From positions 1-62,706 of the forward strand of contig JAFYIZ010000001.1 of the NCBI GenBank assembly GCA_017538365.1: 62,706 nt of DNA, given 5' to 3'. Position numbers and translations under genes: made by a program. How positions within the stretch are numbered: the first letter of the stretch is position 1; each line of letters starts with the position of its first letter. Positions 185 through 52,688 of this stretch are shown here, one piece after another. This stretch comes from a bacterium. GTDB taxonomy: Bacteria; UBP6; UBA1177. The notes below the pieces were generated by a model that was given only the letters and a program-made list of their open reading frames with translations, was not told the origin of the DNA and did not search any database.

Positions 185-227
185 TTGCAATAAATCGTGA
201 TTTTGCTATTAAGGCGCCGATTTTTTT
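185..227 (+). promoter_or_regulatory. Predicted sigma70-type promoter of purH
   Basis: TTGCAA (185-190), a 16-nt spacer and TATTAA (207-212) are followed by the GC-rich segment GGCGCCGA and seven T (221-227). The T-run sits where transcription would start. The same layout recurs upstream of many other genes in the window. Ribosome-binding site ACGGAGGG is at 236-243. Confidence 0.6.
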
Positions 228-247
228 ATTTAACAACGGAGGGTTTC

Positions 248-1810
248 ATGGCAAAAATCAAAAATGTTATCATCAGTGTTTTTGACAAGACGGGACTTGT
301 CGATTTCGCATCGGAACTTGACAAAGCGGGCGTCAAAATCTTTTCAACAGGCGGTAGCTGCAAAATGCTTGCAGACAACGGAATAAACGTAACAAAAATC
401 GAGGATTACACTGGTTTCCCCGAAATGATGGACGGCCGCGTTAAGACGCTTCATCCGAAAATTCACGGCGGAATTCTGGCTCGCAGAGACGATGTAAACC
501 ACATGAAAGCGGCCTCTGATCACGGCATCACGATGTTCGACATGGTCGTTGTCAACCTATATCCTTTCAAAAAGACGGTAGAAAGCGGCAAACCCTTTGC
601 AGATATCATCGAAAACATCGATATCGGCGGTCCTTCGATGGTCAGAAGCGCATCGAAAAATTTCAGAGACGTTGCGATCGTAACTTCTCCCGATGACTAC
701 AAAGCTATTCTTGACGAGATGAAGGCGAATAACGGTGAGATCTCGCTTGAAACGAGATTTAAACTTGCTTCAAAAGCTTTCAGACTCACAGCGGCTTACG
801 ACAGCTACATCAGCTCGTTCCTTTCGACAGTCGACTGCAACGGTGAAAAAGTGAGTGAAGATCCTGAATTCATCAATATGCAGTTCGTTAAGAAAGAGAC
901 TCTGCGTTACGGCGAAAACCCGCATCAGAAGGCTTCTATCTATATCGACAGCGAGGCTGAGAAAGGAACTTTGGCTCTTGCGGAACAGCTTCACGGAAAG
1001 CAGCTTTCCTTCAACAACTACATGGATCTCGAGGCTGCGAAAAATATCGTTAGCGGCTACACTGAACCCGCTGTCGCGATAGTAAAACACACCAATCCGT
1101 GCGGTGCGGCAATAGGAGCGACTCTTGCAGAAGCTTACAATAAAGCTCTTGCATGCGACCCTGTAAGTGCCTTCGGTTCGATAATCGCGGTAAACAAAGC
1201 GCTCGACGGCGAAACTGCTGAAATAATGAAGGCTCTTTTTGTCGAAGCGATCGTAGCTCCGGCATTCTCCGATGAGGCTAAGGCAGTCCTCAGCAAGAAG
1301 AAAAACATCAGACTTGTCGAAGTAGGCGAGTTTGCGAAAAATTTCGCGATGGATGTCGAACTCAAGAAGATCTCCGGCGGTGTTCTCATCGAAACTGCGG
1401 ACAGACGCGTCATCACAGAGGCTGATCTTCAGTTCGTGACCGAGAAAAGACCGACTCCGGAACAGATAAAAGAGCTCCTTTTCGCACAGAACATGGTCCG
1501 TTTCATCAAAAGCAACGCGATCCTTATCGCTAAAAACGGCGCAACGGTCGGTGTAGGAGCAGGGCAGATGTCGCGTATCGACTCGCTCGATATCGCGATC
1601 AAAAAAGCTCAGTCCCCGGTTGAAGGCTGCGTTATGGCAAGTGATGCGTTTTTCCCGTTCAGAGACTGCGTCGACAGAGCTGCAACAGTTGGAATTACTG
1701 CGATAATCCAGCCCGGTGGATCGGTTCGTGACCAGGAATCGATCGATGCCTGCAACGAGCACGGAATTCCGATGGTATTCACCGGGATCAGAAGTTTCAA
1801 ACACCTGTAG
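248..1810 (+). CDS. purH: Bifunctional purine biosynthesis protein PurH (AICAR transformylase / IMP cyclohydrolase)
   Basis: Catalyses the last two steps of de novo IMP synthesis in the cytosol: formylation of AICAR with 10-formyl-THF, then ring closure. The 520-residue product has the usual family length. The N-terminal MGS-like cyclohydrolase domain (about 1-140) shows SVFDKTGLVDFA, STGGS and DGRVKTLHPKIHGG. The transformylase domain shows LRYGENPHQ, VKHTNPCG, DPVSAFGS and a C-terminal FTGIRSFKH. The ATG at 248 is chosen because ACGGAGGG lies just upstream; an in-frame extension to 197 has no such site. It is transcribed alone, with its own predicted promoter. Identification is firm. Confidence 0.97.
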   Translation: MAKIKNVIISVFDKTGLVDFASELDKAGVKIFSTGGSCKMLADNGINVTKIEDYTGFPEMMDGRVKTLHPKIHGGILARRDDVNHMKAASDHGITMFDMVVVNLYPFKKTVESGKPFADIIENIDIGGPSMVRSASKNFRDVAIVTSPDDYKAILDEMKANNGEISLETRFKLASKAFRLTAAYDSYISSFLSTVDCNGEKVSEDPEFINMQFVKKETLRYGENPHQKASIYIDSEAEKGTLALAEQLHGKQLSFNNYMDLEAAKNIVSGYTEPAVAIVKHTNPCGAAIGATLAEAYNKALACDPVSAFGSIIAVNKALDGETAEIMKALFVEAIVAPAFSDEAKAVLSKKKNIRLVEVGEFAKNFAMDVELKKISGGVLIETADRRVITEADLQFVTEKRPTPEQIKELLFAQNMVRFIKSNAILIAKNGATVGVGAGQMSRIDSLDIAIKKAQSPVEGCVMASDAFFPFRDCVDRAATVGITAIIQPGGSVRDQESIDACNEHGIPMVFTGIRSFKHL

Positions 1811-1959
1811 ACCTATAGATTTATTCCACTTTTCTTATTATCATACAAGACGTCCGAGACATTTCATAACTCAATTATGGCATCGTCTTCTTTTCTGAAG
1901 CACGGTTTCATGTTGTCAGTTTAGAATCTCGAATGAAAAAAGATTACCCGCACTCCGGC

Positions 1960-1984
1960 AAAAAAACGGGGGCCGAAGCCCCCG
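1960..1984 (-). terminator. Rho-independent terminator of nifJ operon
   Basis: Read on the minus strand, a perfect 7-bp stem CGGGGGC/GCCCCCG closes a TTCG tetraloop (1967-1984). Seven T follow (1966-1960). A very stable UUCG hairpin plus a U-tract downstream of the nifJ stop is a textbook intrinsic terminator. On the plus strand there is no T-run after it, so it serves the minus-strand operon. Confidence 0.88.
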
Positions 1985-1998
1985 CTTAAACCTGGAAT

Positions 1999-2051
1999 CC
2001 CTCTCATAGGCTCCCCTGAGGTAGGGGAGCTGCCGTAAGGCTGAGGGGTAG
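1999..2051. repeat. Dispersed palindromic repeat element (GCTCCCCT...AGGGGAGC)
   Basis: An 8-bp perfect inverted repeat, GCTCCCCT (2010-2017) and AGGGGAGC (2023-2030), is followed by TGCCGTAAGGCTGAGGGGT. Short intergenic elements of this type (CCCCTC...GGGGAG...CTGAGGGG) are familiar as non-coding dispersed repeats in many bacterial genomes. Only this copy is in the window; a related GAGGGG-type element lies near 16694-16733. Confidence 0.5.
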
Positions 2052-2059
2052 GTCAACGC

Positions 2060-5000
2060 TTAAAGAATATCGTTGTCGTTGAGTTTTTTGAGTCTCTCGT
2101 AACGGTCTTTGAGGTCAGCCTTGAGCATAGCGTGAAGTTTCGCAGCTTCGTTCGGGAAGAGTTTGGTGAGTGATTTAAAGCGGACTTCTCTGTCAAGGAG
2201 TTCCTGCGGATCGCGCGAAGGCTCTTTGCTGTCAAGCTGGAACGGATTCTTTCCTTCCTTTCTGAGTTCCGGATTGAATCTGTAAAGTGGCCAGTAGCCT
2301 GCTTCGACCGCGAGTTTTTCTTCGTTCTGGCTGTGCGACATATCGATACCGTGGTTGATGCAAGGAGCGTAAGCGATGATGAGCGACGGTCCGTTGTATT
2401 TCTCAGCTTCGGTCATAGCTTTGACGAGCTGGTCATGGTTTGCACCCATTGCGACGCTTGCAACGTAGATGTAGCCGTAAGTCATCGAAATCATTCCAAG
2501 ATCTTTCTTTCTTACTTTCTTTCCGCTGGTAGCGAACTTAGCTGTCTGGCCGAACTGGGATGCCTTGGAAGCCTGGCCGCCTGTGTTGGAGTAAACTTCG
2601 GTGTCGAGAACGAGGATGTTTACATTCTCGCCGCTTGCAAGGACGTGGTCAAGACCGCCGTAACCGATATCGTAAGCCCATCCGTCACCACCGAGGATCC
2701 AGATCGATTTCTTAACGATGTAGTCGCTGAGGTCGTAGATTCTGTCGAGCGTTTCGCAGCACGGATCGCCGTTTGCGAGGACGTTCATGATCTTCGGGTA
2801 GAGCTCTTTCGTCTTTTCTGCGTCTTCCTTGTTGTCGATCCATTCCTGGAAGAGTTTCTTTGCTTCTTCGCAGAGGGTGTCGCCGCATTCGCAGGTCGGA
2901 TTTTCGATAGCTTTCTTCATAAGAGCTTCGAGGGTGTTTCTTTTCTGTTTAACAGCGAGAGCGATACCGAAGCCGTGCTCAGCGTTGTCTTCGAAAAGGC
3001 TGTTTGCCCATGCCGGACCCATGCCGTTTTTGTTCTTGCAGTAAGGAATCGTCGGAGCGGTTCCGCCGTAGATCGAGGAGCAGCCCGTTGCGTTGGAAAC
3101 TATCATTCTGTCGCCGAAAAGCTGAGTGATGAGTTTGACGTACGGAGTTTCGCCGCAGCCTTCGCATGCACCGCTGAACTCAAAGAGCGGCTGCTGGAGC
3201 TGGCTGCCTTTTACGGTGTTCTTCGGAAGGAGGTCGTCCTTTACAGGAACCGTGATCGAGAAGTCGTTGTTAGCAGCTTCTTCGTCAACGATCTCGCCGA
3301 AGTGAACCATTTCGAGTGCTTTGTTCTTCGCGATGCAGATGTCTGCGCAGTTTCCGCAGCCGAGGCAGTCCATCGGATAAACCTGCATTCTGAATTTGAG
3401 ACCTTCGAGACCTTTGCCGATAGCTTTTACGGTCTTGAAAGATTCAGGAGCGTCAGCCATTTCTTCTTCAGTGAGAAGGACAGGTCTGATAGCAGCGTGC
3501 GGGCAAACGAACGAGCATTTGTTGCACTGGATGCAGTTTTCGGGGATCCATTTCGGAAGTTTTATAGCTACGCCGCGTTTTTCGAATTTCGTGGTTCCGG
3601 TCGGGAATGAACCGTCGGGGCCCGGAAGTTCGCCGTGAACGTCGTTAGCGAATCTGCTGACAGGGAGGTCGTCGCCGTTTTGTCTTGCGATCGGGTTGAT
3701 GATCTCTTCGACCATATACTGTTCAAGGTCGCTTGAGTAGGGCTCATGAACTTTGTGGATGTCGATAGCGACTTCCTTGGAGTTGAGCCAAGCTTCCTTA
3801 TCGTATTTGATCTCTTTGATCTCGGTGCCTGCTGCGTCGACTGCTGCGTTGTTCATGTCGACGATGTTCTGGCCTTTCTTGCCGTATGATTTCTGGTTTG
3901 CGTTCTTGAGGCTTGCAACTGCCTGCTCGAACGGAATGACTTCGGAAAGTTTGAAGAAAGCGGTGAGCATGATCATGTTGATCCTCTTGCCGAGTCCGAG
4001 ACCTTCAGCGATCTTGACTGCATCGATGATGAAAACTCTGCCGTTTTTCTTTGCGATGTCTTTCTTGAGAGCTGCCGGAAGGTTCTCTTCGGTCTCTTTA
4101 GCGTTCCAGTTGGTGTTGAGAACGAAGATACCGCCGTCTTTCAGGTTCTTGCTGAGGTCGTACATATTTACGTAAGCCTGATTGTGGCAAGCGATGTAGT
4201 CAGCAGTCGTGATGAGATACGGGGATTTGATCTTCTCGTGACCGAATCTGAGGTGGCTGACAGTGAGACCGCCCGATTTCTTCGAGTCGTATGAGAAGTA
4301 GCCCTGTGCGTACTGTTCTGTTTCGTCGCCGATGATCTTGATCGCGTTCTTCGATGCGCCGACGGTGCCGTCAGAGCCGAGGCCGTAAAGCATGCACTGA
4401 ACGGTTCCCTTCGGAACTGTGTCGAGGATTCCGTATTTGAGCGATCTGTAGGTGACATCGTCTTCGATACCGACTGTGAAGTGGTTCTTCGGCTCTCTCG
4501 CCTTGAGGTTGTCGAAAACAGCTTTGACCATGCCGGGAGTGAATTCTTTCGAGGAAAGACCGTAGATGCCGCCGACGACTTTGATCGTCTCTCTCTTGTT
4601 GTAGAGAACGGTGGAAACGTCTTTGTAAAGCGGTTCGCCTTCGCTGCCGGGCTCTTTCGTTCTGTCAAGAACTGCGATTGCTTTAACAGATGCCGGAATA
4701 GCTCTCATCAAATGTTCTGCGCTGAACGGTCTGAAAAGACGTACTTTTACAAGGCCGACTTTTTCGCCCTGTTTGAGCAGGAAGTCGATCGTCTCTTCGA
4801 TCGTGTCGCATGCGCTGCCCATAGCGATGATGACTCTCTCAGCTTCCGGATCGCCGTAGTAGTCGAAAAGGTGGTAGCTTCTGCCGGTGAGTTTGGAAAC
4901 AGCGTCAAAAGCTTCCTGAACGATCATCGGAGCGTTGTCGTAGTAGCTGTTGCTTGCTTCTCTTGCCTGGAAGAAGATGTCGGGGTTCTGAGCCGAACCT

Positions 5001-5650: not shown

Positions 5651-5670
5651 AAAATCCTCCGTATCTAAGG

Positions 5671-6285
5671 TTAGTCAATATAAGTTTTCCCGTTGAATGC
5701 CTCAAGAACCGTTCTCCTGTCGAGAACATCGGGTGCCGCCCCGGCAGGAAGCCCTCTCGCAATGCGGGAGATTCTGACATCGCAGTTTTCAAGGGAGTCT
5801 TTGATGTAAAGTGCCGTCGCGTCTCCTTCGATAGAGAAGGGGAGAGCGAGAAGAACTTCTTTCCCTGGATTGTTTTCGACTCTTTTTCTGAGCTCTTTTA
5901 TCTTCAGATCTTCGGGAAGGATGTTCTCAAGCGGCGCGATAAGACCGCCCAGAATGTGGAAAGAACCTTTGAAACAGCCGTTGCGCTCGATCGCCGCCAT
6001 GTCGCCGTAAGTCGCGACTACGCAGATGATGTCGCTGTCTGACGCACAGTTCGCGCACTCTGCACCTGCAGCCTTGAAAGCACCGCAAGTCTCGCAGATC
6101 TCGACGTTTTCAGAAAGTTCGATTATTTTTTTGAGAGTGTTTTTCATTTTCGGATCGCAGAGAATGGAATAGGAGAGTTTCTGTGCCGCTTTCAGGGAGA
6201 TCCCAGGCAGCTTTTTGAACTCTTCGACCAGCGTCCTCATCGAGAGGGCAGCCGGAGAGACGAAAGATTTCTCCGTTCCTTCCAT
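5671..6285 (-). CDS. recR: Recombination mediator protein RecR
   Basis: A ring-forming DNA-binding protein that works with RecF/RecO to load RecA at gaps. The 204-residue product has the family order: N-terminal helix-hairpin-helix (KLPGISLKAAQKLSYSIL), a four-cysteine zinc finger (CETCGAF...CANC), then a TOPRIM domain (ICVVATYGDMAAIE) and the C-terminal ISRIARGLPAGAAPDVLDRRT region. ATG at 6285 is preferred over a GTG one codon earlier; a modest TGAGG site precedes it. It follows ybaB with a 7-nt gap, the near-universal ybaB-recR pairing. Confidence 0.95.
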   Translation of the reverse strand: MEGTEKSFVSPAALSMRTLVEEFKKLPGISLKAAQKLSYSILCDPKMKNTLKKIIELSENVEICETCGAFKAAGAECANCASDSDIICVVATYGDMAAIERNGCFKGSFHILGGLIAPLENILPEDLKIKELRKRVENNPGKEVLLALPFSIEGDATALYIKDSLENCDVRISRIARGLPAGAAPDVLDRRTVLEAFNGKTYID

Positions 6286-6292
6286 CACGACC

Positions 6293-6604: not shown

Positions 6605-6637
6605 TCTTCCCTCTTTAAAGAAGTTAATAACAAAAAA

Positions 6638-6672
6638 ACGGCATACCATAATAGCGAGCAGTTAAAAGGCAA
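6638..6672 (-). promoter_or_regulatory. Predicted promoter of ybaB-recR-nifJ
   Basis: Read on the minus strand: TTGCCT (6672-6667), a 16-nt spacer, TATGGT (6650-6645), then ATGCCG and a run of seven T followed by G. The -10 is imperfect (4/6), but the layout matches the other promoters described here. It overlaps the region that must also hold the divergent promoter for the gene at 6746. Confidence 0.5.
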
Positions 6673-6745
6673 GAATTTTTTTCCTTAATTTATTTTATTG
6701 TAATACGCGCCCAATTGAGTAAAATCTTCGGTCTTTGGAGGTGAA

Positions 6746-7576
6746 ATGAGCCGCTTTTTTTGTGTTTTTGCAGCAGTTTTTGTGCTTTTGGCGTCATGCG
6801 GAAAGCTGAAGGACGATTCGATAGTCTACGTTTTCAAAGGCGATGTCGTCTCCGTTTCCGATTTCAAGCTGAAATACAACCTCTGGCTGCGGCAGAACAA
6901 CATGCCTGACACCGAAGAAATGAGGAAAAACTATCTTTTCCGCGAACTTTCCGAAAAATTCCTCTACGAAATGGGAAAGAGCGAAGGAGTAGGCGATATT
7001 CCTGAAATCAAGAATAAAATCGATGACTTCAAGAGAAAAACCATCGTCGAATACATGAACAAAAGGACGAAACGCGAAGTTTATGCGATAGACGACGAAG
7101 CGGTGCGGCAGTATTATATCGACAACAAGGACAAATTCATGCGCGACAAGCTCTACCGCCTTTACGCAGTCAGAGTGACGAACAAGAAAAATGCAGAGGA
7201 TATCGCGCAGCAGCTTCGAAACGGTTCGAGCATCAGAATTCTTTCGGCAACTCTTTCCGACGATGAAATTCTGGCGAGAAACAACGGCGACTGGGGGCTT
7301 TTCAGCGAAGACGTGATGGGCGAATCGTGGAAAGATGACGTTCTGGCGAGTTTCCCGGGCGAAATACTCGGCCCTTATCTTGACAGCGAGAACTTTTATA
7401 CAATAATCGAGATCGCCGGTTTTGCCTACAAGAGACACTTGAGTTTCAATCTGGCTTATCCGCTGATAGTTGAAGAGCTGATTGCGAAATACGGTACTGA
7501 AAAGTGGGACGGGTATCGCGATAAAATGATGACTGAGTACGGCGCAAAAATAAATGTCGAGAATTTAAGGTGGTAA
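6746..7576 (+). CDS. PpiC/SurA-like peptidyl-prolyl isomerase lipoprotein
   Basis: A 276-residue predicted lipoprotein. The signal peptide ends in a lipobox (VLLASC, Cys about residue 18). The body resembles SurA/PpiC foldases: an N-terminal helical part (VSVSDFKLKYNLWLRQ) with DEAVRQYYIDNKDKF, then a parvulin-like stretch with YAVRVTNKKNAEDIAQQL and NGDWGLFSEDVM. Such proteins assist folding of outer-membrane or secreted proteins in the periplasm. TGGAGGTG precedes the ATG. It is the first gene of the operon running to 15544, with prfB one base after its stop. The parvulin active site is not clearly conserved, so isomerase activity is uncertain. Confidence 0.75.
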   Translation: MSRFFCVFAAVFVLLASCGKLKDDSIVYVFKGDVVSVSDFKLKYNLWLRQNNMPDTEEMRKNYLFRELSEKFLYEMGKSEGVGDIPEIKNKIDDFKRKTIVEYMNKRTKREVYAIDDEAVRQYYIDNKDKFMRDKLYRLYAVRVTNKKNAEDIAQQLRNGSSIRILSATLSDDEILARNNGDWGLFSEDVMGESWKDDVLASFPGEILGPYLDSENFYTIIEIAGFAYKRHLSFNLAYPLIVEELIAKYGTEKWDGYRDKMMTEYGAKINVENLRW

Positions 7577-15731: not shown

Positions 15732-16607
15732 ATGACAAACGAAATTTTGCCACAGAGAGTTGATATAGAAAACAAGATTTTAATAATCAGAGGGCAACAA
15801 GTTATAATTGACAGGGATCTTGCCAGATTCTATGGAGTAGGAACAAAAGTCTTGAATCAGGCTGTTAAGAGAAATATCGAAAGATTTCCAGAAGAGTTTT
15901 GTTTTCAACTGAATAAAGAGGAATTTGAAAATTGGAAGTCACAATTTGTGACCTCCAATTCTGATAAAATGGGCTTGCGCCGACCTCCTTATGCCTTTAC
16001 GGAACAGGGTGTTGCAATGCTTTCTGCAGTCTTGAAAAGTGATACGGCAATTGCTGCCAGCATCCAGATTATGCATGCATTTGTATTCATGCGCCGCTTT
16101 TTGCAAAATAATTCCAAGATTTTTGTTGAAATAGATTCAATAAAAAGACACCAGGTCGAATCCGACAAACGCATTGACGAACTTTTTGACAGAATGGACA
16201 GATACAAAATCGAAGATAAGCAGGGTATTTTCTTTCAAGGTCAGATTTTTGATGCTTACGCAAAGTTTGAATCGTTCATTCAAAGTGCTGAAAAAGAAAT
16301 CGTCCTGATTGACAACTACATTGATCTTTCGGTTTTGGAACGCTTTTCAAAAAAGCAGAAAGATGTAAAAGTCACGATTTACACAGATCCGAAAACAAAA
16401 CTAAACGAGCAGGATGTTCAGAAATTCAATGAACAATATCCGCAGCTTACACTAAAACACTCTTCAAAAGCACACGACCGTTTTCTGATAATTGATAACA
16501 ATACGCTTTATCACATAGGCGCATCGTTAAAAGATCTCGGCAAAAAATGTTTCGCATTCGAGGTGTTGGATTCGGCTTGGATAAAAGAGATTTTGAAGAA
16601 TTTGTGA
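15732..16607 (+). CDS. ORF6N-domain protein with PLD-like C-terminal part
   Basis: A 291-residue protein. The N-terminal about 90 residues match the ORF6N family, DNA-binding modules common on phages and mobile elements (IIRGQQVIIDRDLARFYGV, LNQAVKRNIERFPEEF, YAFTEQGVAMLSAVL). The C-terminal part (about 150-291) has KAHDRFLIID, which fits H-x-[K/R]-x4-D of phospholipase D-like nucleases, with GASLKDLGKK where PLD proteins have a G-S/A motif. The gene and its upstream region (15545-15731) are visibly AT-rich compared with neighbours. Inverted repeats follow it. These features suggest horizontal acquisition. I see no strong ribosome-binding site before the ATG. Confidence 0.8.
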   Translation: MTNEILPQRVDIENKILIIRGQQVIIDRDLARFYGVGTKVLNQAVKRNIERFPEEFCFQLNKEEFENWKSQFVTSNSDKMGLRRPPYAFTEQGVAMLSAVLKSDTAIAASIQIMHAFVFMRRFLQNNSKIFVEIDSIKRHQVESDKRIDELFDRMDRYKIEDKQGIFFQGQIFDAYAKFESFIQSAEKEIVLIDNYIDLSVLERFSKKQKDVKVTIYTDPKTKLNEQDVQKFNEQYPQLTLKHSSKAHDRFLIIDNNTLYHIGASLKDLGKKCFAFEVLDSAWIKEILKNL

Positions 16608-19234: not shown

Positions 19235-19267
19235 AAAAAAAAAGCACTTGTTTTGAACAAGTGCTTT
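19235..19267 (-). terminator. Intrinsic terminator downstream of the CAU tRNA
   Basis: On the minus strand AAAGCACTTGTT pairs perfectly with AACAAGTGCTTT (19267-19241, 3-nt loop), followed by T down to 19235 (nine T in all). The plus-strand side has no T-run. It would end the tRNA transcript; it also stands directly in front of the zinc-ribbon ATG and could act as an attenuator for that gene. Confidence 0.85.
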
Positions 19268-19325
19268 CTCAAATTTATGTCGTGAAAGTTGTAAATAAAC
19301 AGCAAATCCAGCCTCCACAAAAGAG

Positions 19326-19401: not shown

Positions 19402-19444
19402 GCAAAAAGCGCAACCTTTATAGTCCGATTCATTTAAAATGCAA
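19402..19444 (-). promoter_or_regulatory. Predicted tRNA promoter
   Basis: On the minus strand: TTGCAT (19444-19439), a 16-nt spacer, TATAAA (19422-19417), GGTTGCGC, then five T and GC directly before the tRNA 5' end. The -10, GC-rich discriminator and T-run repeat the layout seen at other promoters here. Confidence 0.7.
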
Positions 19445-22437: not shown

Positions 22438-22465
22438 ACCAACCTTGAGAAAAGTTAACAAAAAC

Positions 22466-22500
22466 CGCGCGTTTATACACGAAAAGTTCAGATTTTACAA
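22466..22500 (-). promoter_or_regulatory. Predicted lepA promoter
   Basis: On the minus strand: TTGTAA (22500-22495), a 17-nt spacer, TATAAA (22477-22472), CGCGCGG, then five T and G. Both boxes match the consensus 5/6 and spacing is optimal. Confidence 0.75.
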
Positions 22501-22548: not shown

Positions 22549-22590
22549 TTGCATTTATTAAGGTTATTCGTATAATATCGCGCTTTTGAT
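22549..22590 (+). promoter_or_regulatory. Predicted promoter of the wzz-like gene
   Basis: TTGCAT (22549-22554), a 16-nt spacer and a perfect TATAAT (22571-22576) are followed by ATCGCGC and T-runs (TTTTGATTTTTG). It is back-to-back with the lepA promoter, about 50 bp away. Confidence 0.75.
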
Positions 22591-28053: not shown

Positions 28054-28093
28054 TTTACTTTGAAATTTCTGCGACTATACTTTTGCGTTTTTT
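28054..28093 (+). promoter_or_regulatory. Predicted mreB promoter
   Basis: TTTACT (28054-28059), a 16-nt spacer and TATACT (28076-28081) are followed by TTTGCG and six T, then G. AAAGGAAGG near 28109-28117 is the ribosome-binding site. Confidence 0.6.
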
Positions 28094-29991: not shown

Positions 29992-30008
29992 AGAGTAGAG
30001 AGTAGGGA

Positions 30009-30062
30009 GTTTAGGGTGTTTAAGGTGTTTAGGGTGTTTAAGGTGTTTAGGGTGTTTAGGGG
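30009..30062. repeat. 9-bp tandem repeat, six copies (GTTTAGGGT / GTTTAAGGT alternating)
   Basis: Six contiguous 9-bp units occupy 30009-30062: GTTTAGGGT, GTTTAAGGT, GTTTAGGGT, GTTTAAGGT, GTTTAGGGT, GTTTAGGGG. The first four form two identical 18-bp dimers. A purine-rich GAGAGTAGAGAGTAGGGA precedes them. It fills the gap between mreC and the lipoprotein gene and is a likely site of copy-number change. Confidence 0.9.
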
Positions 30063-30094: not shown

Positions 30095-30880
30095 ATGAAA
30101 AAGATTTCTTTTTTGCTAGTGCTTTTTGTTGCTTTTTTGTTTGTCGGATGCGGTGATGCCGATCCGAAGCCTGCAACCGTCGGTGATGAAGATGAAGTCT
30201 CCGACAATAACGATGTTACAGAAGACGCTGATGTGCAGGATGAAGAAAATGTTGAAGAGCCGGATGAAACTGTTGTCGATGAAGAAGTAGTCGTTGATGA
30301 AGAACCAACCGAACCAACGGAGCCGACTGAACCGACGACTTCGGAATTCGATGTGATCGGAACGTTCAATCTCAGCTTTGCAGGCCCGGTTCATGCAAGT
30401 GTAAGCATAAACGATGTGACTAATCTCGGCGGAGAAGGCACGGCAGAGTTCGTCTACAACGGCCAGCCGATCACTTTCGACAAGATCAACATCAATGCAG
30501 TCGTTATGAATATGGATCTTTTCCCGATGGCTATGATCAACAACGGTATCGTAGTCGTATGGCTCGATAGTTTCAGTGTTAGTGACGCTACGGGAAATAC
30601 TGCTGTTCAGAAGCAGGTTTTCGGCATCAATCTCCCGCAGAATACCGAAATCGGCGCCGGAGAGATGGCTAACGCAAATATGTATGCTTTCTACGGCGAC
30701 ATGCTGGTAAACGTTAAAGCAAGTCAGTTCGATATCAAATGCGTCCGTTCTGTAACCAATATCGGAAACTATGAAGTCACTGTAAACGACGGCAGCAACC
30801 TGACAATGACTGCCAGCGGTGATCTGCTTGATCCTGCGGCAGGAGCGGCTTATCTTCCTTATCCGGCTTGTGAAGAATAA
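30095..30880 (+). CDS. Lipoprotein with Asp/Glu-rich linker, function unknown
   Basis: A 261-residue protein with signal peptide and lipobox (FLFVGC, Cys about residue 19). A strongly acidic linker with TEP repeats (about 24-88) is followed by a beta-rich domain of unknown family (about 90-261) with two Cys (IKCVRS, YPACEE). The design - lipobox, acidic linker, compact C-terminal domain - recurs at 35968 and 47757 and suggests surface-exposed display on a tether. GGGGGAG lies upstream of the ATG. Its stop codon directly abuts the stop codon of convergent ribF. Confidence 0.8.
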   Translation: MKKISFLLVLFVAFLFVGCGDADPKPATVGDEDEVSDNNDVTEDADVQDEENVEEPDETVVDEEVVVDEEPTEPTEPTEPTTSEFDVIGTFNLSFAGPVHASVSINDVTNLGGEGTAEFVYNGQPITFDKININAVVMNMDLFPMAMINNGIVVVWLDSFSVSDATGNTAVQKQVFGINLPQNTEIGAGEMANANMYAFYGDMLVNVKASQFDIKCVRSVTNIGNYEVTVNDGSNLTMTASGDLLDPAAGAAYLPYPACEE

Positions 30881-33040: not shown

Positions 33041-34543
33041 TTATTTCTCTTTGTTCAAAGTTTTCGGATCAACTTCATATACAAGAAAGAAAGGCAGCTT
33101 TTTCTTAAAAGTCATCCCTTCAGGCGGATTTTTCCTTAATTTTAACTGTTCTTCTTTCGGAATGTAGAGTCTTGAAACACTTCCGGGAAATCTTCTCAGC
33201 ATAAGGAAAACTCCAGGTTCCTTTATCTGTTTCAATGAACGTATGTGCTTGTAATTATTATTTTTATAGCCTGAATAATACGAGATCCTGCGTCCTATGT
33301 TCTTGTCGGCGAGATAGAAAGTAGCATCCGGATAATCTTTGAGAAGAGTTTCTATCGATTCTTTCTGCTCTTTTCTGCGCTCCTTGAATCTTACACTGTC
33401 GTGAGCCGCAAATGCAACGTTGCTTACGAAAAGCGTGAGAAAAACTACGACTGCGGCGATCTGAAGCGCAAGATGTCTGCTTTTAATCATTTTATTTAAG
33501 AATATTCCGTACATAGCGCATACTGGAAGAAGAAATATTATTGAGTATCTGGTGTTTCTTATCAAAGTGGTGTAAGGGGAAAAACTTGTCGGAGCGAATG
33601 TCATGAAAAGAAAGTAGGAGATGAACCAGATGAAGAAAATCACTTCTTTTCCCGCTTTTTTCATGCAGACAAGAATGATACAGGCGAGGGTTGAAGCGGC
33701 GATGAAGTATCCGTTGAGACCGAACATCATCCAGTTCGCGAAGTTACCGTGCGTGAACATCGTTCTGATGTAGAAAAAGAGGTCTTTCGGATCGACGTCG
33801 AACATTCTGTCCTGATAATCGATTCCTTTTTTGCTTATTACGATGTGGTGGAAAAAGTCGTTGTGTATATTGAGGTAAAATAATCCCTGAACCGCAGGAA
33901 GAACTAGCGAACAGAGTGCCGCACATGCTATCCAGAGAATCGTTTTTTTGTTGAAACCCTTCCTGTACCAGACGTAAAGCGAAGCCAGCGGTGCGATGAA
34001 AAGCCCTGTCGTTCTGGCGAAGAAAATGCCCCCTATCGCGAAACCGCCGAGAACGAACCATCCGATTTTTTCGCTTTTTATGCCGCGCTGGAACGAATAA
34101 ACGGTGAGAAGTGTGAAAAATTCAAGGGAAGGAGCAACCTGAAGAAAGTTCCCGTAAATTAAAATTATCGGAAAAGAGAGGTAAAGCAGGGTTGCGATTG
34201 AAGCGGTCAGCCTGTCGGTCTCTTCTAGAACGATTTTGTACGCGAGCCATACGCTGCAAATGCCGTAAACCATTGTCGGAAGCAGTGAAGTAAAGTCGCT
34301 AACACCGAAAAGTTTGTACAGCAGCGCGACCGGAACGAATACGACCCAGCGGATATCAAAAATGAAATTCGCAGCGAGGTCGCCGTTTGCGAATCTGTGC
34401 GCCAGCAGAGTGTAAGAGAGATCGTCGCCTTCTGAAATTCCCATGAATGTTACAAGTCTCAGAATGAATGAGACGATCATGAAAATGTAAACCGGCTCGA
34501 AAGGTAATTTGTTAAATTTTTCAGTAATTTTGCCTAATTCCAT
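33041..34543 (-). CDS. GT-C family membrane glycosyltransferase (ArnT/PMT-like)
   Basis: A 500-residue polytopic membrane protein with about ten to twelve hydrophobic helices and a soluble C-terminal tail (about 400-500). The first periplasmic loop has the acidic motif ISEGDDLSY expected of GT-C enzymes, which use lipid-phosphate sugar donors. IFFARTTGLFIAPLASLYVWY is typical of the PMT_2 region. Donor and acceptor are unknown. It starts at ATG 34543, behind a near-consensus promoter shared back-to-back with thiI. THUMP methyltransferase and ribF follow in the same operon, with no obvious functional link. Confidence 0.8.
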   Translation of the reverse strand: MELGKITEKFNKLPFEPVYIFMIVSFILRLVTFMGISEGDDLSYTLLAHRFANGDLAANFIFDIRWVVFVPVALLYKLFGVSDFTSLLPTMVYGICSVWLAYKIVLEETDRLTASIATLLYLSFPIILIYGNFLQVAPSLEFFTLLTVYSFQRGIKSEKIGWFVLGGFAIGGIFFARTTGLFIAPLASLYVWYRKGFNKKTILWIACAALCSLVLPAVQGLFYLNIHNDFFHHIVISKKGIDYQDRMFDVDPKDLFFYIRTMFTHGNFANWMMFGLNGYFIAASTLACIILVCMKKAGKEVIFFIWFISYFLFMTFAPTSFSPYTTLIRNTRYSIIFLLPVCAMYGIFLNKMIKSRHLALQIAAVVVFLTLFVSNVAFAAHDSVRFKERRKEQKESIETLLKDYPDATFYLADKNIGRRISYYSGYKNNNYKHIRSLKQIKEPGVFLMLRRFPGSVSRLYIPKEEQLKLRKNPPEGMTFKKKLPFFLVYEVDPKTLNKEK

Positions 34544-34571
34544 GTCAACACCAGATTTTTAAAAGCTCAAA

Positions 34572-34606
34572 CGGCGCATTATAGCGGTGAAAATCTTAAA
34601 AAACAA
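34572..34606 (-). promoter_or_regulatory. Predicted promoter of the glycosyltransferase-THUMP-ribF operon
   Basis: On the minus strand: TTGTTT (34606-34601), a 17-nt spacer and a perfect TATAAT (34583-34578), followed by GCGCCG and TTT. The discriminator is fully G+C. It faces away from the thiI promoter, with the two -35 boxes only 28 bp apart. Confidence 0.75.
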
Positions 34607-34634: not shown

Positions 34635-34676
34635 TTGACAAAAAAATCAAATATTCGTTAAATCTGGCGTTTTTTT
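34635..34676 (+). promoter_or_regulatory. Predicted thiI promoter
   Basis: A perfect TTGACA (34635-34640), a 17-nt spacer and TTAAAT (34658-34663) are followed by CTGGCG and seven T, then G. AAGGTGG at 34687-34692 serves the ATG at 34699. Confidence 0.75.
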
Positions 34677-35889: not shown

Positions 35890-35909
35890 TATGATTCCGC
35901 GGTTTTTTT
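35890..35909 (+). promoter_or_regulatory. Predicted -10 region of the DUF1566 lipoprotein gene
   Basis: TATGAT (35890-35895) is followed by TCCGCGG and seven T, nearly identical to the efp start region (TAGGAT-TCCGCGG-C-TTTTT). No convincing -35 box is seen 16-18 nt upstream. The call rests on the match to the efp element. Confidence 0.45.
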
Positions 35910-36916: not shown

Positions 36917-38815
36917 CTAGAAAATTCCGCCGTCAGGAGCGACTGTTTCATCCGAATGGTCGATAAGATTTTTGTAGGTATTTTTGAGTATGTCGAGTTT
37001 GGTTTCGATATCCTGAAGTTTTTCGAGGTCGAGTTTTTCACCTTTGATGTAGGTTTTCGTTCCCGAAATTAGAGCTTCCATTTTTTCCATTTTGTCGTTG
37101 CCGATCTTTGAGTTTGCAAAAATCTGGTAAAGTTTCGGCTTCATCGTTTCAAGCTCGAAAAGGTAGTTTTCAATGCTCTGGACGATTTCTTCGACCATCG
37201 TTTTTTCGGCAAGATCAAGGTAGTAGTCGGAGTTTTCTTCGATTTTCTTTGCAAGTTCCTCTTTCGTCATGTTGCCGGTTGACGCAACGGTGATGCGCTG
37301 CGAAATGCCGGTATCCATATCCATAGCCTGAACCGTGACGATTCCGTTGATATCGATTTCGTAGGTGACTCTGATTTTGACTTCGCCGCGTTTTGCCGGA
37401 CGCAGACCGTCAAGCTCAAATTCACCCAGAATCTCGTTTTCGGAAGCGACGAGCGAATCGCCCTGAAGCAGAAGGATCTTCGCTTTTTCCTGATTGTCGT
37501 GCGACGTTACGAAAATATCGTCAACGGAAGTCGGAACTGTCGAATTTTTCTGGATCAAAGTGTAGAACATATCTTTTCCGACAGCGATTCCGAGGTTGTG
37601 CGGAGTGACATCGAGAAGAAGCGTTCCGTTGTCTTCTCCGTTTGATTCCTCTTCGAGCAGTTTCGCCTGAAGTGCTGCGCCGATAGCGACGGTTTCATCA
37701 GGATTTATGTTCTTGAGTATCTGGACAGACGGACAGAAATCAGCCAGTTCTTTCTGCAGCAGAGGCATTCTCGTCTGACCGCCGATGAGGATTATTCCGG
37801 CAAGATCGCCAGGAGTGAGCTGGACTTCCTGCAAAGTTTTGTCGAAGGTGTTGATCGCCTTCTGAATGAACGGAAGGGCGAGTTCTTCGAGTTTTTCGCG
37901 CGTTACTTCTGTTTTGTAGTGGATAAAGTTGCCGTTTACCTCTTTGAGATAGGGGATTTCGATAGATACGCTCGTCTGGATAGTGAGGTTTTTCTTAGCG
38001 GTTTCAGCGTAGTCGCGAAGTCTCTGGATAACAAGCTGATCGTCGATGTCAGGCAGATTGTATCTTGTAGCCAGATCGTCGAGAAGGTAATCCAAAAGCG
38101 CGTTCGTGATGTCTTCACCGCCAAGGAAAGTGTTGCCGGCGGTCGCGACGACGTTGAAAGTGTCTTTTGAAACTTCCATCAGCGTGATATCGAATGTTCC
38201 GCCGCCGAAATCGAAAACGGCGAGAAGTTTTTCTTCCGAGAAAGACTTCGAAAAACCGTAAGCCAGAGCCGCCGCGGTCGGTTCGTTGATGATTCTCATA
38301 ACGTCGATTCCCGCGATTGCAGCCGCGTCTTTTGTTGCCTGACGCTGCTTGTTGTTGAAGTATGCCGGAACGGTGATGACCGCTTTCGTGATCGTTTCTC
38401 CGACATATTTTTCAGCGGTGCTGCGGAGCTCGGTCAGAATATAGGATGAAATCTCTTCGGTCGTGAAATTCTTGCCGAGGGCCGGAATGTATATTTCAAG
38501 ACCGTTTCCCTGCTGCCCTGGAATGACTTTATACGGGAGTGTCGGCAGAATGTGGCTGATCGATGCGCTTTTGAAGTCGTGCCCGATGAGCCTTTTGATG
38601 CAGTAAACCGTGTTTTCTGCGTTCGTCAGCATCTGCTGATGCGCCTGAGCGCCGACTATTTTGCCGATTTCGCCTGTAAGATCGTTCTTTACGAAACTGA
38701 CGATCGAAGGGATCGTCGCCTTGCCGCCGTCGTCCTTTACGACTTCCGGTTTTCCGTTTTTGATTACCGCGACGCATGAATTGGTCGTACCGAGATCGAT
38801 TCCGATAACTGTCAT
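36917..38815 (-). CDS. Hsp70 chaperone (DnaK-type)
   Basis: A 632-residue Hsp70. The nucleotide-binding domain opens [18 protein letters not shown] and has [30 protein letters not shown] and [11 protein letters not shown]. The substrate-binding domain has [14 protein letters not shown] and [15 protein letters not shown]. The lid (about 510-620) is shorter and more divergent than in E. coli DnaK, and the C-terminus is PDGGIF rather than the usual acidic tail. No grpE or dnaJ is adjacent, so this may be a DnaK paralogue; the main copy could be elsewhere. The start region reads GATGTT-GGCGCGC-TTTTT, matching the promoter layout seen elsewhere, but with a poor -35. Confidence 0.9.
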
Positions 38816-38947: not shown

Positions 38948-38989
38948 TTGACAATAAAATGCTCTATGAGTAGGATTCCGCGGCTTTTT
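38948..38989 (+). promoter_or_regulatory. Predicted efp promoter
   Basis: A perfect TTGACA (38948-38953), a 17-nt spacer and TAGGAT (38971-38976) are followed by TCCGCGG, C and five T, then G. The 23-nt segment from GATTCCGCGG shares 19 positions with that at 35893. Confidence 0.8.
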
Positions 38990-47563: not shown

Positions 47564-47582
47564 TTTTACCTCCAACATTACA

Positions 47583-47600
47583 AAAAAGCGCGGAATTTTA
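47583..47600 (-). promoter_or_regulatory. Predicted -10 region of the CBM9-like lipoprotein operon
   Basis: On the minus strand TAAAAT (47600-47595) is followed by TCCGCGC and six T, then G. The discriminator is almost identical to those at efp and at 35890. No good -35 box is visible. Confidence 0.5.
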
Positions 47601-47691
47601 GCACGGTTTTTGAAAAATGGTAGAAAAGATGAGAGTTTTGTCTGCATAAAGTTGTAATATTTGATTTTGTTTTAAAGTTGAAAAATAATTA

Positions 47692-47718
47692 TTGAGATTA
47701 AAAAAAAGTATGTATAAT
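47692..47718 (+). promoter_or_regulatory. Predicted promoter of the DUF6273-like lipoprotein/kinase operon
   Basis: TTGAGA (47692-47697), a short 15-nt spacer and a perfect TATAAT (47713-47718). Unlike most promoters in the window, the following bases (AATTTTGTGG) lack a GC-rich discriminator. TGGAGG at 47746-47751 is the ribosome-binding site for the ATG at 47757. Confidence 0.5.
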
Positions 47719-47756
47719 AATTTTGTGGTCTTTATGATTAAGGTATGGAGGTCAAG

Positions 47757-48947: not shown

Positions 48948-51900
48948 AGCAGGTTTCTCTGAAAAACGATGTGACGAAAACAGTTTCGCTTGACGCCATT
49001 TCGCCTGATTTCATTAATGATTGCAAAGAGCCTTCAGGCTGGAAATACGATGTTAAGGAAGAAATCGGACGCGGCGGAATCGGAAAAGTTATGGTTGCTT
49101 TCGATCACACGATAGGGCGTGAGATCGCTTTGAAGGAACTCATAAGCAGCGCGGAAGACGGAAGGATTCCGTCTCTCGACAAGATGCGAAGCGACGAGGC
49201 TCGGTTTTTGAGAGAGGCTTGCGTCACGGGTCAGCTTGAACATCCGGGCATCGTTCCGGTTTATGAAATCGGGCGAAAACCCGATGAAAACCGCTATTAC
49301 ACAATGCGTCTTGTCCGCGGCGTGACGCTTTCCCAGGCAATAAAGGATGCCGGAACTCTCGAAAAAAGGCTGAGACTTCTGCCTCATTTCCGTGATATCT
49401 GCAACGCCATAGCTTATTCTCACAGCCGCGGAGTGATTCACCGCGACATAAAGCCCGAAAACATCATGATAGGGGAATTCGGTGAAACGGTCGTACTGGA
49501 CTGGGGTTTGGCGAAGGTTAAAGGCGAGGATGACGCCGCCGCAGGAGAACTCCGCGAAGAATTGAATCTGCTCAAAGTCGAAAACATAGGAATGACTGTC
49601 AGAGGAAAGGCGATTGGAACTCCTGCCTATATGTCTCCGGAACAGGCGAGGGGTGATATTTCTGCGATAGACGAGCGCAGCGACATATACTCTCTGGGAG
49701 CCGTTCTTTACGAGATACTGACAGGTCTGCCGCCCTTTACTGGAAAGGATGTTCAGGAAATTCTGGAAAACGTCAAATCGGCTCTTCCTGTCGAAATCAC
49801 GGTGTATGAGCCTGCTTCTCCGCCTGATCTTTGCGCCGTTGTTGAAAAAACGCTTACAAAAGATCCCGCTTCGCGTTATCAGTCGGCTCTGGAAGTTGCA
49901 AAGGAAATCGAAAATTTCATGTCGGGCGGCAAAATTGCAGCGTATGAATACAGTTCTTGGGAGATGTTCAAGCGTTTTGTTTCCAAGAACAAGTCTCTTT
50001 CGGTGCTTGCCGTGGCGCTTCTTGCTGTTTTGATTTTTGCTTCTGTCGCCGTTTTCGGTGCTTACCGCGATTCAGTCAGCAATGAAAAGGCGGCTCATCT
50101 CAATCTTTCTCTCGGATATCTCGAGTACGCCGAAAAACTTCTGAAAGAGGGAAAGTATTCCGATTCCGAAATTTTTGCCGCGGCTTCTCTTTACAATTCT
50201 CCGTTCAACCCTATGAGTCCGTGGAGTTATTCAGATTCGTATCTCGCTGAAAATATTGATGAAAGCCGTGAACATATGCTTGAAATCCAGTCTCTGCTGT
50301 ATCTTTCCAGGGTTTACGGCAACAACGCTTTCAAAGGCAATTTTGCAAGTGTCGGTTTTGATGCACGGAATGTGGCGGTCTCCCCTGGAGCCTCTCTTTT
50401 TGCAGTTTCGGGCAAGAGGAAAGAGGTTAAGGTCTATTCGGCTGACGGAACTGAAAAGTTCATTCTCAGCGGTCACAAGGACGAAGTTAGTGCTATAGCT
50501 TTTTCTTCCGACGGCAAGTTTATCGCGACAGGAGGCTGGGACAATAATCTTATACTCTGGAACGCTTTGAACGGCGCAAAGATAAAGTCTCTGCCGACTC
50601 TTGCAGGTGAAATCTACGCTCTTTCGTTTTCGCCCGGAAACAAGTTCATCGCTTTCGGCGGTACGGAAAAAACACTCTGGGTCGTAAAAACCGATGATTT
50701 AACACTCTCTTCTGCCGGCAGATTCGAACTTGAAAACACCGTCCGCAGCATAGACTGGTCTCCCGACGGAAAAAAGATACTTGTTTCGGACAGTTCAGGA
50801 AAAATCTACATTGTAAGGAGAGACGGCATAGAAAAAGTTTTCGATTTTCACCGCGAACCGACAATTTCTGTCCGTTTTCTGAATGACGGGGTTCACTTTG
50901 TCTCGGCTAGTTACGATAAAAAATTTGCTCTCTGGAGCATACTTTTTGAGAAACCGCTTAATATTTTTGAGCATTGGGATGCTTTTTTCTCGCTTGATGT
51001 GTCGAATGACGGAACGCTGGCGGCAGCGGCAACGCGTGACGGTTCGATAAAGCTGATAAATCTCGTAACAAAGCAGATCGACGACCTTCGCGACCATGTC
51101 GGATCAGTCTATTCGGTAGCTTTTCTGCCGATGGGTAATTCGCTTGTTTCAGTTGGAGAAGACCGTTTCATCAAGATGTGGCGAACCGATTTTACCAAGG
51201 AAATGCAGCGCCTGCGCGGACATACGACCTATATTCCGTCGCTTGCGTATTCCAAAGACGACAAGTTTCTGGCTTCTTCAAGCTGGGATTACACGATAAA
51301 ACTTTGGAATATTGCTTCCGAATCGGTCATATCTTCTTTCGGTATCGAAGGAACGGTCTCCTACAGTCTGGCGTTTTCTCCCGACGGTCAGTTCCTTGCT
51401 TCGGGTGATTCTGACGGAGCGCTGCGATTCTGGAATCCGCTCACAGGCAAGATGATTTTTTCATATCCGCTTCATACCGATCAGATCACGTCGATAAACT
51501 TTTTCAACAGAGGAAAAAACATAATTTCTTCAGGAAAAGACAAAAAAGTGAAAATTTTCGATCTCTCTGAAAGGCGTATCGTAAAAGTTCTGGATCACGA
51601 AAATCCGGTGAATACCGTGGCTGTATCGGCTGACGGAACATTCGCCGCAAGTGCCGGCAGAAACGGCGAAATAAACTTCTGGAGCCTTCCGGAAGGCAAA
51701 CTTCTTTTCGGAACCAGAGGCGGGAGCGGAAAATCAGTTCTTTCACTTGCAATCTCGCCGGACAGTAAAACGGCTGTTTCGGCTGACGAGGACGGGGTCA
51801 TCAACAAGTGGGATGTGAAATCGAAGAAAATAGTCGAAACCTTCAAGGAAAATTCGGATGCAGTAAGTGCTGTCGCATTTTCGGATGACGGAAAAATGCT

Positions 51901-52156
51901 GCTTTCGGCAGGAAGGGAAGTCGTTATCAGAAACACTTCCGATTCGCAGAAGATAATGCAGTTCGACCTGCAGTACACGGCTTACAGCGTAGCATTCGAG
52001 CGCAGCGGTAAATTCTTTGTTGTAAGTGACGGGGCAGTCATCAAACGGTATCCGGTAATTTCGGAAATGTGGAAACTCGATCCTGCAAAACTTCTGGAAG
52101 AGACTCAGAATGAGGCGGGCAAAAAACTCGAAGGTTTCAAACTTATCCCGTTTTAA
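48944..52156 (+). CDS. Ser/Thr protein kinase with WD40 propellers
   Basis: A 1070-residue membrane kinase. The kinase domain (about 36-330) has EEIGRGGIGKV (Gly loop), IALKEL (Lys), VIHRDIKPENIM (catalytic loop), VLDWGLAK (DWG in place of DFG) and GTPAYMSPEQARG. One membrane helix lies at about 352-375 (LSVLAVALLAVLIFASVAVF). About fourteen WD40-like repeats follow (about 470-1040; for example HKDEVSAIAFSSDGKFIATGG and HTTYIPSLAYSKDDKFLASSS), enough for two seven-bladed propellers. These would lie outside the cytosol. The ATG overlaps the lipoprotein stop (ATGA). pncC follows 9 nt after its stop. Inferred role: sensing of a periplasmic ligand or protein by the propellers. Confidence 0.92.
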   Translation: MKQVSLKNDVTKTVSLDAISPDFINDCKEPSGWKYDVKEEIGRGGIGKVMVAFDHTIGREIALKELISSAEDGRIPSLDKMRSDEARFLREACVTGQLEHPGIVPVYEIGRKPDENRYYTMRLVRGVTLSQAIKDAGTLEKRLRLLPHFRDICNAIAYSHSRGVIHRDIKPENIMIGEFGETVVLDWGLAKVKGEDDAAAGELREELNLLKVENIGMTVRGKAIGTPAYMSPEQARGDISAIDERSDIYSLGAVLYEILTGLPPFTGKDVQEILENVKSALPVEITVYEPASPPDLCAVVEKTLTKDPASRYQSALEVAKEIENFMSGGKIAAYEYSSWEMFKRFVSKNKSLSVLAVALLAVLIFASVAVFGAYRDSVSNEKAAHLNLSLGYLEYAEKLLKEGKYSDSEIFAAASLYNSPFNPMSPWSYSDSYLAENIDESREHMLEIQSLLYLSRVYGNNAFKGNFASVGFDARNVAVSPGASLFAVSGKRKEVKVYSADGTEKFILSGHKDEVSAIAFSSDGKFIATGGWDNNLILWNALNGAKIKSLPTLAGEIYALSFSPGNKFIAFGGTEKTLWVVKTDDLTLSSAGRFELENTVRSIDWSPDGKKILVSDSSGKIYIVRRDGIEKVFDFHREPTISVRFLNDGVHFVSASYDKKFALWSILFEKPLNIFEHWDAFFSLDVSNDGTLAAAATRDGSIKLINLVTKQIDDLRDHVGSVYSVAFLPMGNSLVSVGEDRFIKMWRTDFTKEMQRLRGHTTYIPSLAYSKDDKFLASSSWDYTIKLWNIASESVISSFGIEGTVSYSLAFSPDGQFLASGDSDGALRFWNPLTGKMIFSYPLHTDQITSINFFNRGKNIISSGKDKKVKIFDLSERRIVKVLDHENPVNTVAVSADGTFAASAGRNGEINFWSLPEGKLLFGTRGGSGKSVLSLAISPDSKTAVSADEDGVINKWDVKSKKIVETFKENSDAVSAVAFSDDGKMLLSAGREVVIRNTSDSQKIMQFDLQYTAYSVAFERSGKFFVVSDGAVIKRYPVISEMWKLDPAKLLEETQNEAGKKLEGFKLIPF

Positions 52157-52165
52157 GGAGGAAAA

Positions 52166-52639
52166 ATGTCTGAAATAAAAAAATTGGGAGAAATACTCAA
52201 AAGGAAAAATATCAAAATAAGCGGTGCCGAATCGTGCACCGGCGGCATGGTCGCGGCAGAGATAACCTCTGTTGACGGTATTTCTGCGGTTTTCAACGAA
52301 AGTTTCGTAACTTATTCGAACGATTCAAAACACCGTAATCTGGGGGTTTCTCTTGCAACTCTGGAAAAATTCGGGGCTGTCAGCGAAGAGTGCGCCAGAG
52401 AGATGGCTCAAGGTGCAGCGGCAAGAAGCGGAGCAGATATTGCTTTTTCAGTCACCGGTATCGCCGGACCGACAGGCGGAACAAAGGAAAAACCTGTAGG
52501 AACAGTCTGTTTCGGTCTGTTTTTTAAAGGAAAAACCGTATCGGAAACGGCTCATTTCGACGGTGACCGCGAGAGTGTAAGAAGAGCTTCAGTCGATTTC
52601 GTGATAAGTATGATGCTTGATGCTCTTGCATCGGTATAA
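52166..52639 (+). CDS. pncC: Nicotinamide-nucleotide amidohydrolase PncC (CinA C-terminal domain)
   Basis: Deamidates NMN to nicotinate mononucleotide in pyridine-nucleotide salvage. The 157-residue stand-alone domain has ISGAESCTGGMVAAEIT, VTYSNDSKH, FSVTGIAGPTGGTKEKPVGTV and ends in the typical helix. No COG1058 N-terminal domain of full CinA is present. AAGGAGG precedes the ATG. It is probably transcribed with the kinase operon. Confidence 0.92.
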   Translation: MSEIKKLGEILKRKNIKISGAESCTGGMVAAEITSVDGISAVFNESFVTYSNDSKHRNLGVSLATLEKFGAVSEECAREMAQGAAARSGADIAFSVTGIAGPTGGTKEKPVGTVCFGLFFKGKTVSETAHFDGDRESVRRASVDFVISMMLDALASV

Positions 52640-52641
52640 TG

Positions 52642-52688
52642 TTGCCAAATCGTTTTTTTCAGGTAGGATAGCGGGACTTTTTTTATGG
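52642..52688 (+). promoter_or_regulatory. Predicted promoter of the 712-residue lipoprotein gene
   Basis: TTGCCA (52642-52647), a 16-nt spacer and TAGGAT (52664-52669) are followed by AGCGGGAC and seven T. The -10 is identical to that of efp. A TATAAT at 52635-52640 overlaps the pncC stop but has no -35 partner I can see. Confidence 0.6.

Follow-up and report, generated by a model that had tools for sequence, protein, structure and literature searches.

A recurrent promoter layout was found in a 62,706-nucleotide stretch of DNA from a bacterium of the phylum UBP6 (GenBank assembly GCA_017538365.1, contig JAFYIZ010000001.1, positions 1 to 62,706), hereafter called the window. The genome it comes from measures 2.32 Mb in 49 contigs, the window being contig 30, and UBP6 corresponds to Candidatus Asafiota in a 2024 review (PMC11382960). 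In this layout the -10 box is followed by a GC-rich discriminator and then by a run of T residues, mostly flanked by G. The layout is anchored to the -10 box, accompanies about half of the promoters called in two species against 2% of the calls in shuffled sequence, and is concentrated in a single genus. The initial annotation of the window had described it as recurrent and had raised a genome-wide form, which would be unusual, and a taxon-specific motif; the layout is recurrent, genome-wide, unusual and taxon-specific. The element would be the ordinary RpoD-type housekeeping promoter of one uncultured rumen genus of UBP6, with TTGACA-16 bp-TATAAT-NNNSC-G-T(4-8)-G as its favoured form.

Recurrence of the layout upstream of genes

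Promoters were called blind, so that they would not be selected by the motif itself. The caller scores only the -35 box, the -10 box and the spacer, using generic sigma70 weights and a threshold of 7 bits; the downstream bases were read afterwards and are numbered from the -10 box (+6, +7 and so on). The main sample consisted of the window and 400 kb of the same genome (463 kb, 188 upstream regions) and yielded 109 calls, or 117 with another background. A G at +6 was present in 73 of the 109 calls, TTTT starting at +6 to +10 in 59, and TTTT together with a G at +6 or +7 in 55 (50%). The base composition was 70% GC at +5, 83% GC at +6 and 62-72% T at +8 to +11, with AAAA in 3% of the calls. The spacer was 16 bp long in 76 calls, 17 in 25, 18 in 7 and 15 in 1. 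For a second species (G023), 90 calls were obtained, with G at +6 in 55, TTTT in 40, and TTTT with a G at +6 or +7 in 34.

The enrichment of the order -10 box, GC-rich segment and T-run over shuffled and coding controls, on which the initial annotation had staked its claim, is present. Twenty-five dinucleotide shuffles of the own-genome regions gave a mean of 35.6 calls, with G at +6 in a fraction of 0.20, TTTT in 0.14 and both in 0.02 (maximum 0.06); shuffles of the second species gave 29.9 calls, with TTTT and a G at +6 or +7 in 2% (maximum 7%). Among 62 calls in coding sequence, G at +6 fell to 0.08 and T at +8 to +11 to 0.32-0.44. TTTT at +6 to +10 was found in 0.09 of 33 calls from Escherichia coli and, in similarly small samples, in 0.06 of 17 from Bdellovibrionota, 0.00 of 20 from Bacillota and 0.03 of 33 from Myxococcota/delta. 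Chance and base composition are ruled out by these controls together with the reversed-pattern counts given below. The excess of TTGACA-like and TATAAT-like boxes upstream of genes (109 calls against 35.6 in the shuffles) is that of a sigma70 (RpoD-type) housekeeping promoter. With chance calls subtracted, we estimate the share of true promoters that have the layout at roughly 55-75%.

The caller is not a sensitive one. In the window alone, 10 calls of at least 7 bits came from the 24 upstream regions that are 40 nt or longer, and 5 of these calls have TTTT starting at +6 to +10. Among the 11 promoters quoted in the initial annotation (Table 1), 5 lay above the threshold (wzz-like, mreB, thiI, efp and 52664); lepA and the tRNA fell under it, and for purH, ybaB, 35890 and 47600 the call was placed elsewhere.

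The T-run has a defined anatomy. When the two species were pooled, a closed run of at least four T starting at +6 to +11 was present in 111 of 199 calls, most often from +7 (38 runs) or +8 (34 runs). The regions hold a further 1132 T-runs, and compared with those the runs at the promoters are longer (mean 5.57 against 4.98 T) and are more often preceded by G (71/111 against 301/1132) and directly followed by G (72/111 against 367/1132). A purine at +6 to +10 precedes the run in 110 of the 111 cases.

Distribution within UBP6 and the transcription machinery

The pattern TAWNATNNNNSGNTTTT was counted in 28 UBP6 genomes with the reversed pattern as a control; its spacing is fixed, and it would miss a G at +8 or +9. 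There were 135 matches against 11 reversed in the genome of the window, and the pattern was enriched about 6-fold or more in 15 of the 15 genomes of its genus (weakest, 51 against 9). The four other genomes of the family gave 36/13, 30/11, 17/11 and 26/12 (1.5-2.8-fold), and family f2 (26/16) and five pooled f3 genomes (20/10) gave about 1.6-2-fold from fewer matches. Three f4 genomes were below the reversed control (55/61, 48/62 and 65/73). Blind calling in 111-141-kb samples of six other UBP6 groups found TTTT in 0.08-0.24 of 28-37 calls and G at +6 in 0.20-0.39. A phylum-wide motif is ruled out by the pattern counts and these samples, and the phylum-specific initiator motif proposed in the initial annotation has to be narrowed to a layout concentrated in one genus. 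In 20 non-UBP6 genomes, reached via named loci, the pattern stayed mostly within about 0.5-1.4-fold of the control. The clearest excess among these 20, 31 against 11, occurred in G043, the genome behind locus L052 (a Helicobacteraceae metagenome-assembled genome, MAG); G054 gave 6 against 2, from few matches. Among the literature matches listed, no title or abstract described the layout in UBP6, by which its absence from the literature is not shown.

The LepA of the window shares 98-99% identity with the LepA of 12 named MAGs. Some of these MAGs (several) are ruminant-derived, and their public labels are UBP6, Spirochaetales or plain bacterium. Loci L011, L019 and L020 bear the public labels Spirochaetales and Sumerlaeota, yet LepA identity and matching genome counts place them in UBP6.

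Within the genus, the lepA promoter was found at 12 of 14 loci, with four T in 4 and five T in 8. At loci L015 and L016, whose membership in the genus was judged from matching counts, lepA appears on visual inspection to be immediately preceded by coding sequence. The mreB promoter carries five to seven T in 13 of 15 genus genomes and is variant in G014 and G019. Conservation within the -10/discriminator string is partly by construction, because the aligned loci were picked by that string; the sequence upstream of it is freer, most clearly in L025. Among 13 orthologous promoter pairs from the two species, two of which encode proteins only 52-56% identical, a run of at least three T was found in both species in 10 and, within the stretch searched, in neither in 3. 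Run length drifts between species, differing in 7 of the 10.

A genus-level shift of the core promoter, 16-bp spacing included, could mean that the G-T-run is read as an initiator element, either by an altered polymerase or by an additional DNA-binding protein. RpoB (22 of 23 loci, 12 from the genus and 10 other, with the G017 fragment excluded) and RpoC (20 loci, 12 and 8) do hold, under the criterion used here, 18 and 23 genus-specific candidate sites, respectively; one example is an F where E. coli beta' has residue 917. Against this, RpoD (25 sequences from the 28 genomes, 13 from the genus and 12 other) has, under a similar criterion, only two sites that are fixed in the genus and absent from the others, and both lie outside regions 1.2, 2 and 3. 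At 21 chosen beta positions around the DNA-reading and rifampicin pockets, the genus has no fixed residue that the other UBP6 sequences lack. We consider a changed polymerase or added protein highly improbable. No obvious cause of the genus trait was found in the comparison of RpoD, RpoB and RpoC, by which a cause is not excluded. The RpoD of G000 (locus L114) has an acidic linker with Asp runs in a non-conserved region.

Across this one genus the downstream half of a housekeeping promoter, from the discriminator through the start to the first transcribed bases, is strongly patterned, and the sister genera have closely similar RpoD. The contrast with the sister genera constitutes a natural experiment on the choice of the first transcribed bases.

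Probable transcript start and possible role of the T-run

The polymerase of E. coli preferentially initiates at a purine, and most often does so 7 bp past the -10 box (PMC5730371). On this basis transcription probably starts at the purine that immediately precedes the run (+6 or +7, sometimes +8 to +10), and the run would occupy about +2 to +7 of the transcript. Messages with the layout would then likely begin mostly with pppG(U)4-8G. The initial annotation had placed the T-run at the expected +1; the run does lie near the transcript start, but probably begins at +2, after the purine. The interpretation given in that annotation is partly supported: the layout is recurrent, genome-wide and taxon-specific, and the phylum scale and the +1 placement are to be corrected.

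We tentatively favor, at a little under even confidence, a genus-specific architecture of the core promoter and 5'-leader, in which the U-rich head of the mRNA is the selected product and slippage is a possible consequence. The run would be mainly a feature of mRNA starts, a sharpened and start-anchored form of a U-rich stretch found before genes throughout UBP6, and it would be kept because it leaves the 5' end unstructured and rich in U. The weak rU:dA hybrid would probably bring some slippage at initiation as a side effect. The trait is mainly genus-level and looks sharpened in this genus rather than invented from nothing.

The resemblance to the UTP-sensitive promoters of E. coli, suggested in the initial annotation, holds. 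The carAB P1, pyrBI, codBA and upp promoters likewise have a -10 box, a GC-rich stretch, a purine start and a T-run in the first transcribed bases; the closest is carAB P1, whose -10 box is followed by GCCGCC and then by a GUUUGC start (PMC6245113). The carAB P1 arrangement, at least three T early after a purine, is found in 110 of the 111 calls with a run of at least four T, if the start is placed as above. In E. coli the genes concerned are few, are related to pyrimidines and have had their UTP control tested, whereas the genus has the layout in about half of the calls of two species and is known from sequence alone.

Initiation throughout the genus might be reiterative and UTP-sensitive. 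The polymerase would slip on G(T)n, high UTP would give extra U, abortion or U-headed transcripts, and many genes would sense the pyrimidine supply. The matched anatomy of carAB P1, which stutters with UTP (PMC6245113), is consistent with this proposal, as is the greater length of the start runs. Slippage is also widespread elsewhere: in Streptococcus agalactiae it affects as many as 15% of 1,210 start sites (PMC4448216). That organism is like the genus in the genome-wide scale of homopolymer-linked starts; its transcripts were sequenced, however, and the added nucleotides were mostly A repeats (67%), whereas the tract of the genus is T and is seen in DNA only. Against UTP sensing, the quoted promoters of the window precede genes as varied as purH, ybaB, lepA, mreB, thiI, efp and a tRNA, and run length drifts between orthologs. 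A link to nucleotide-metabolism genes is customary for promoters of the carAB P1 type without strictly defining them. In addition, stuttering is stronger from A than from G starts and stronger at a spacing of 8 bp than at 7 bp (PMC6245113), whereas here the start would mostly be G with 5-6 bp before it. Global UTP sensing of this kind appears unlikely. Somewhat less likely again is that most mRNAs of the genus are made by reiterative initiation on G(T)4-8, bear non-templated oligo(U) heads of heterogeneous form at the 5' end, and depend globally on the supply of UTP. Such heads would parallel, in bacteria, the 5' poly(A) heads carried by poxvirus late mRNAs.

Stable RNAs are the classical site of stringent control, and the GC-rich discriminators were examined at tRNA promoters (30 calls; each species gave 15 from its 23 tRNA heads, and the genes are mostly shared). 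The discriminator (+2 to +7) has a GC fraction of 0.89 and 0.84 at the tRNA promoters of the two species against 0.64 in the G-filtered mRNA set. TTTT is found in the leader of 8 of the 30 tRNA calls. The corresponding count for mRNA calls is 99 of 199 (p 0.019 by Fisher's test), and it is 89 of 161 when a G at +6 or +7 is required (p 0.005). In the own genome alone the T-run is found in 4 of 15 tRNA calls against 59 of 109 mRNA calls (p 0.056), or 55 of 93 with a G at +6 or +7 (p 0.025). GC-richness thus peaks at tRNA promoters, where T-runs look rarer, which suggests that the layout has two separable parts, a GC-rich discriminator that is strongest at stable-RNA genes and a T-run that is commoner at mRNA genes. 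Because only 2 of the 28 genomes hold a 16S gene, rRNA promoters were read in one genus genome and one f3 genome; that of G017 is TAAGAT-ACGCCCCGC-T6.

The tRNA promoters of both species and one rRNA promoter, with their very GC-rich discriminators, resemble stringently controlled stable-RNA promoters, as does the GC content at +5 and +6 of the calls at large; the mRNA promoters of the genus differ in having a milder GC version plus the T-run. A GC-rich discriminator that makes most genes responsive to ppGpp and DksA would agree with the tRNA values and with the DksA/TraR-type zinc-finger protein found in 26 of the 28 phylum genomes. A protein found across the phylum cannot alone account for a trait of one genus. 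Stringent control also leaves the T-run unexplained, and the GC content of the mRNA discriminators is no more than moderate (0.64). We judge it very unlikely as an account of the layout; the link to stringent control drawn in the initial annotation fits best at the stable RNAs.

A U-rich leader could also be purely translational, with T selected for access of the ribosome or S1 and the polymerase indifferent. Gaps before genes lacking a promoter call are indeed U-rich: at 12-30 nt before the gene, 121 same-strand gaps (15-80 nt, no promoter call) have T at 0.45 and A at 0.28. In 32 convergent gaps T is at 0.28. Same-strand gaps in six other UBP6 samples (7-19 gaps each, promoter calls included; families f1-f4, loci L089-L108, L140-L199 and L232-L247) lean alike, with T at 0.34-0.48, and E. 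coli gaps show no such lean (T 0.28, A 0.29). The lower frequency of the run at tRNA promoters and its greater frequency with short leaders agree with a translational role. The T content of promoter leaders is, however, anchored to the -10 box, at 0.62 from +7 to +14 and 0.44 past +16, which makes the start-anchored run an addition to the general U-rich stretch, and the run persists with leaders of at least 80 nt and at one genus rRNA promoter. A purely translational leader is rather unlikely. C-to-T deamination in the open bubble was considered as a source of the T; the argument against it is that the discriminator, in the same bubble, keeps its C.

Several observations weigh against the genus-specific mRNA-head architecture that we favor. 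The trait does not stop sharply at the genus: the g4, g5 and f3 samples show a milder peak of G at +7 (0.51, 0.41 and 0.42), a G-T-run with G at about +8 or +9 occurs at mreB in g2 and g3 and at lepA in the near relatives L017 and L018, and five pooled near-relative loci, two of them from the genus, have TTTT in 0.43 of 7 calls. The contrast between tRNA and mRNA promoters is suggestive only, with few independent promoters and a weak difference in one species alone, and a purely mRNA role does not explain the run at the rRNA promoter and at some tRNA promoters. Among calls with a G at +6 or +7, TTTT declines from 0.62 with leaders below 50 nt (n = 112) to 0.38 with those of at least 80 nt (n = 32); the values are 0.59 of 59 and 0.47 of 17 when calls must reach 9 bits, and long leaders probably hold more false calls. 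The start site, finally, is inferred from sequence.

The layout could make many message starts sensitive to nucleotide supply or could simply provide a U-rich head. If slippage occurs, it would amount to a global nucleotide-sensing mode of initiation; if it does not, the layout would imply strong selection on the first bases of mRNAs.

Promoters and neighboring features of the window

All 11 promoter strings quoted in the initial annotation are present, each once in the window. Those given with a coordinate (35890, 47600 and 52664) sit there and the others lie upstream of the genes named. NCBIfam supports the names purH, ybaB, lepA, mreB, thiI and efp, and Pfam the Wzz domain.

Table 1. Promoters with the layout, partial cases and exceptions in the window
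Feature	Position	Strand	Sequence	Remarks
purH promoter	185..227	+	TTGCAA-16-TATTAA-GGCGCCGA-T7	string found; NCBIfam
ybaB promoter	6632..6650	-	TATGGT-ATGCCG-T7	string found; YbaB/EbfC by NCBIfam
Exception, PPIC-type gene	6698..6746	+	TTGTAA-16-TAAAAT-CTTCGGTC-T3	
tRNA-Met promoter	19404..19422	-	TATAAA-GGTTGCGC-T5	run adjoins mature tRNA
lepA promoter	22460..22477	-	TATAAA-CGCGCGG-T5	string found; NCBIfam
Wzz-domain gene promoter	22571..22587	+	TATAAT-ATCGCGC-T4	string found; Pfam
mreB promoter	28076..28093	+	TATACT-TTTGCG-T6	string found; NCBIfam
Partial case, PMT_2-domain gene	34544..34583	-	TATAAT-GCGCCG-TTTG	
thiI promoter	34658..34676	+	TTAAAT-CTGGCG-T7	string found; NCBIfam; retained in G023
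Promoter of Lcl_C-domain gene	35890..35909	+	TATGAT-TCCGCGG-T7	string found; Pfam
efp promoter	38971..38989	+	TAGGAT-TCCGCGGC-T5	string found; NCBIfam
Promoter of CBM9_1-domain gene	47582..47600	-	TAAAAT-TCCGCGC-T6	string found; Pfam
Exception, DUF6273 gene	47713..47744	+	TATAAT-AATTTTGTGG	
Promoter of gene at about 52701	52664..52684	+	TAGGAT-AGCGGGAC-T7	string found

The gene at about 52701 matched no Pfam family at 1e-4, and its single NCBIfam match was far under the cut-off of that model. The two exceptions that the first reading of the window had named are real: the promoter at 6746 has TTT only, and that at 47745/47757 reads TATAAT-AATTTTG. Beyond these, strong calls lacking TTTT were obtained at 34543 on the minus strand (TATAAT-GCGCCG-TTT), at 38815 on the minus strand (Hsp70 gene; TATCAT-GCCTGAG-TTATTG) and at 16017 on the plus strand.

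Short tandem near-repeats of GTTTAGGGTGTTTAAGGT are located at 30008-30062, upstream of the gene at 30095/30137. A terminator-like hairpin lies at 19238-19270 on the minus strand, between the tRNA-Met gene and the next gene, and is nearly identical in G023.

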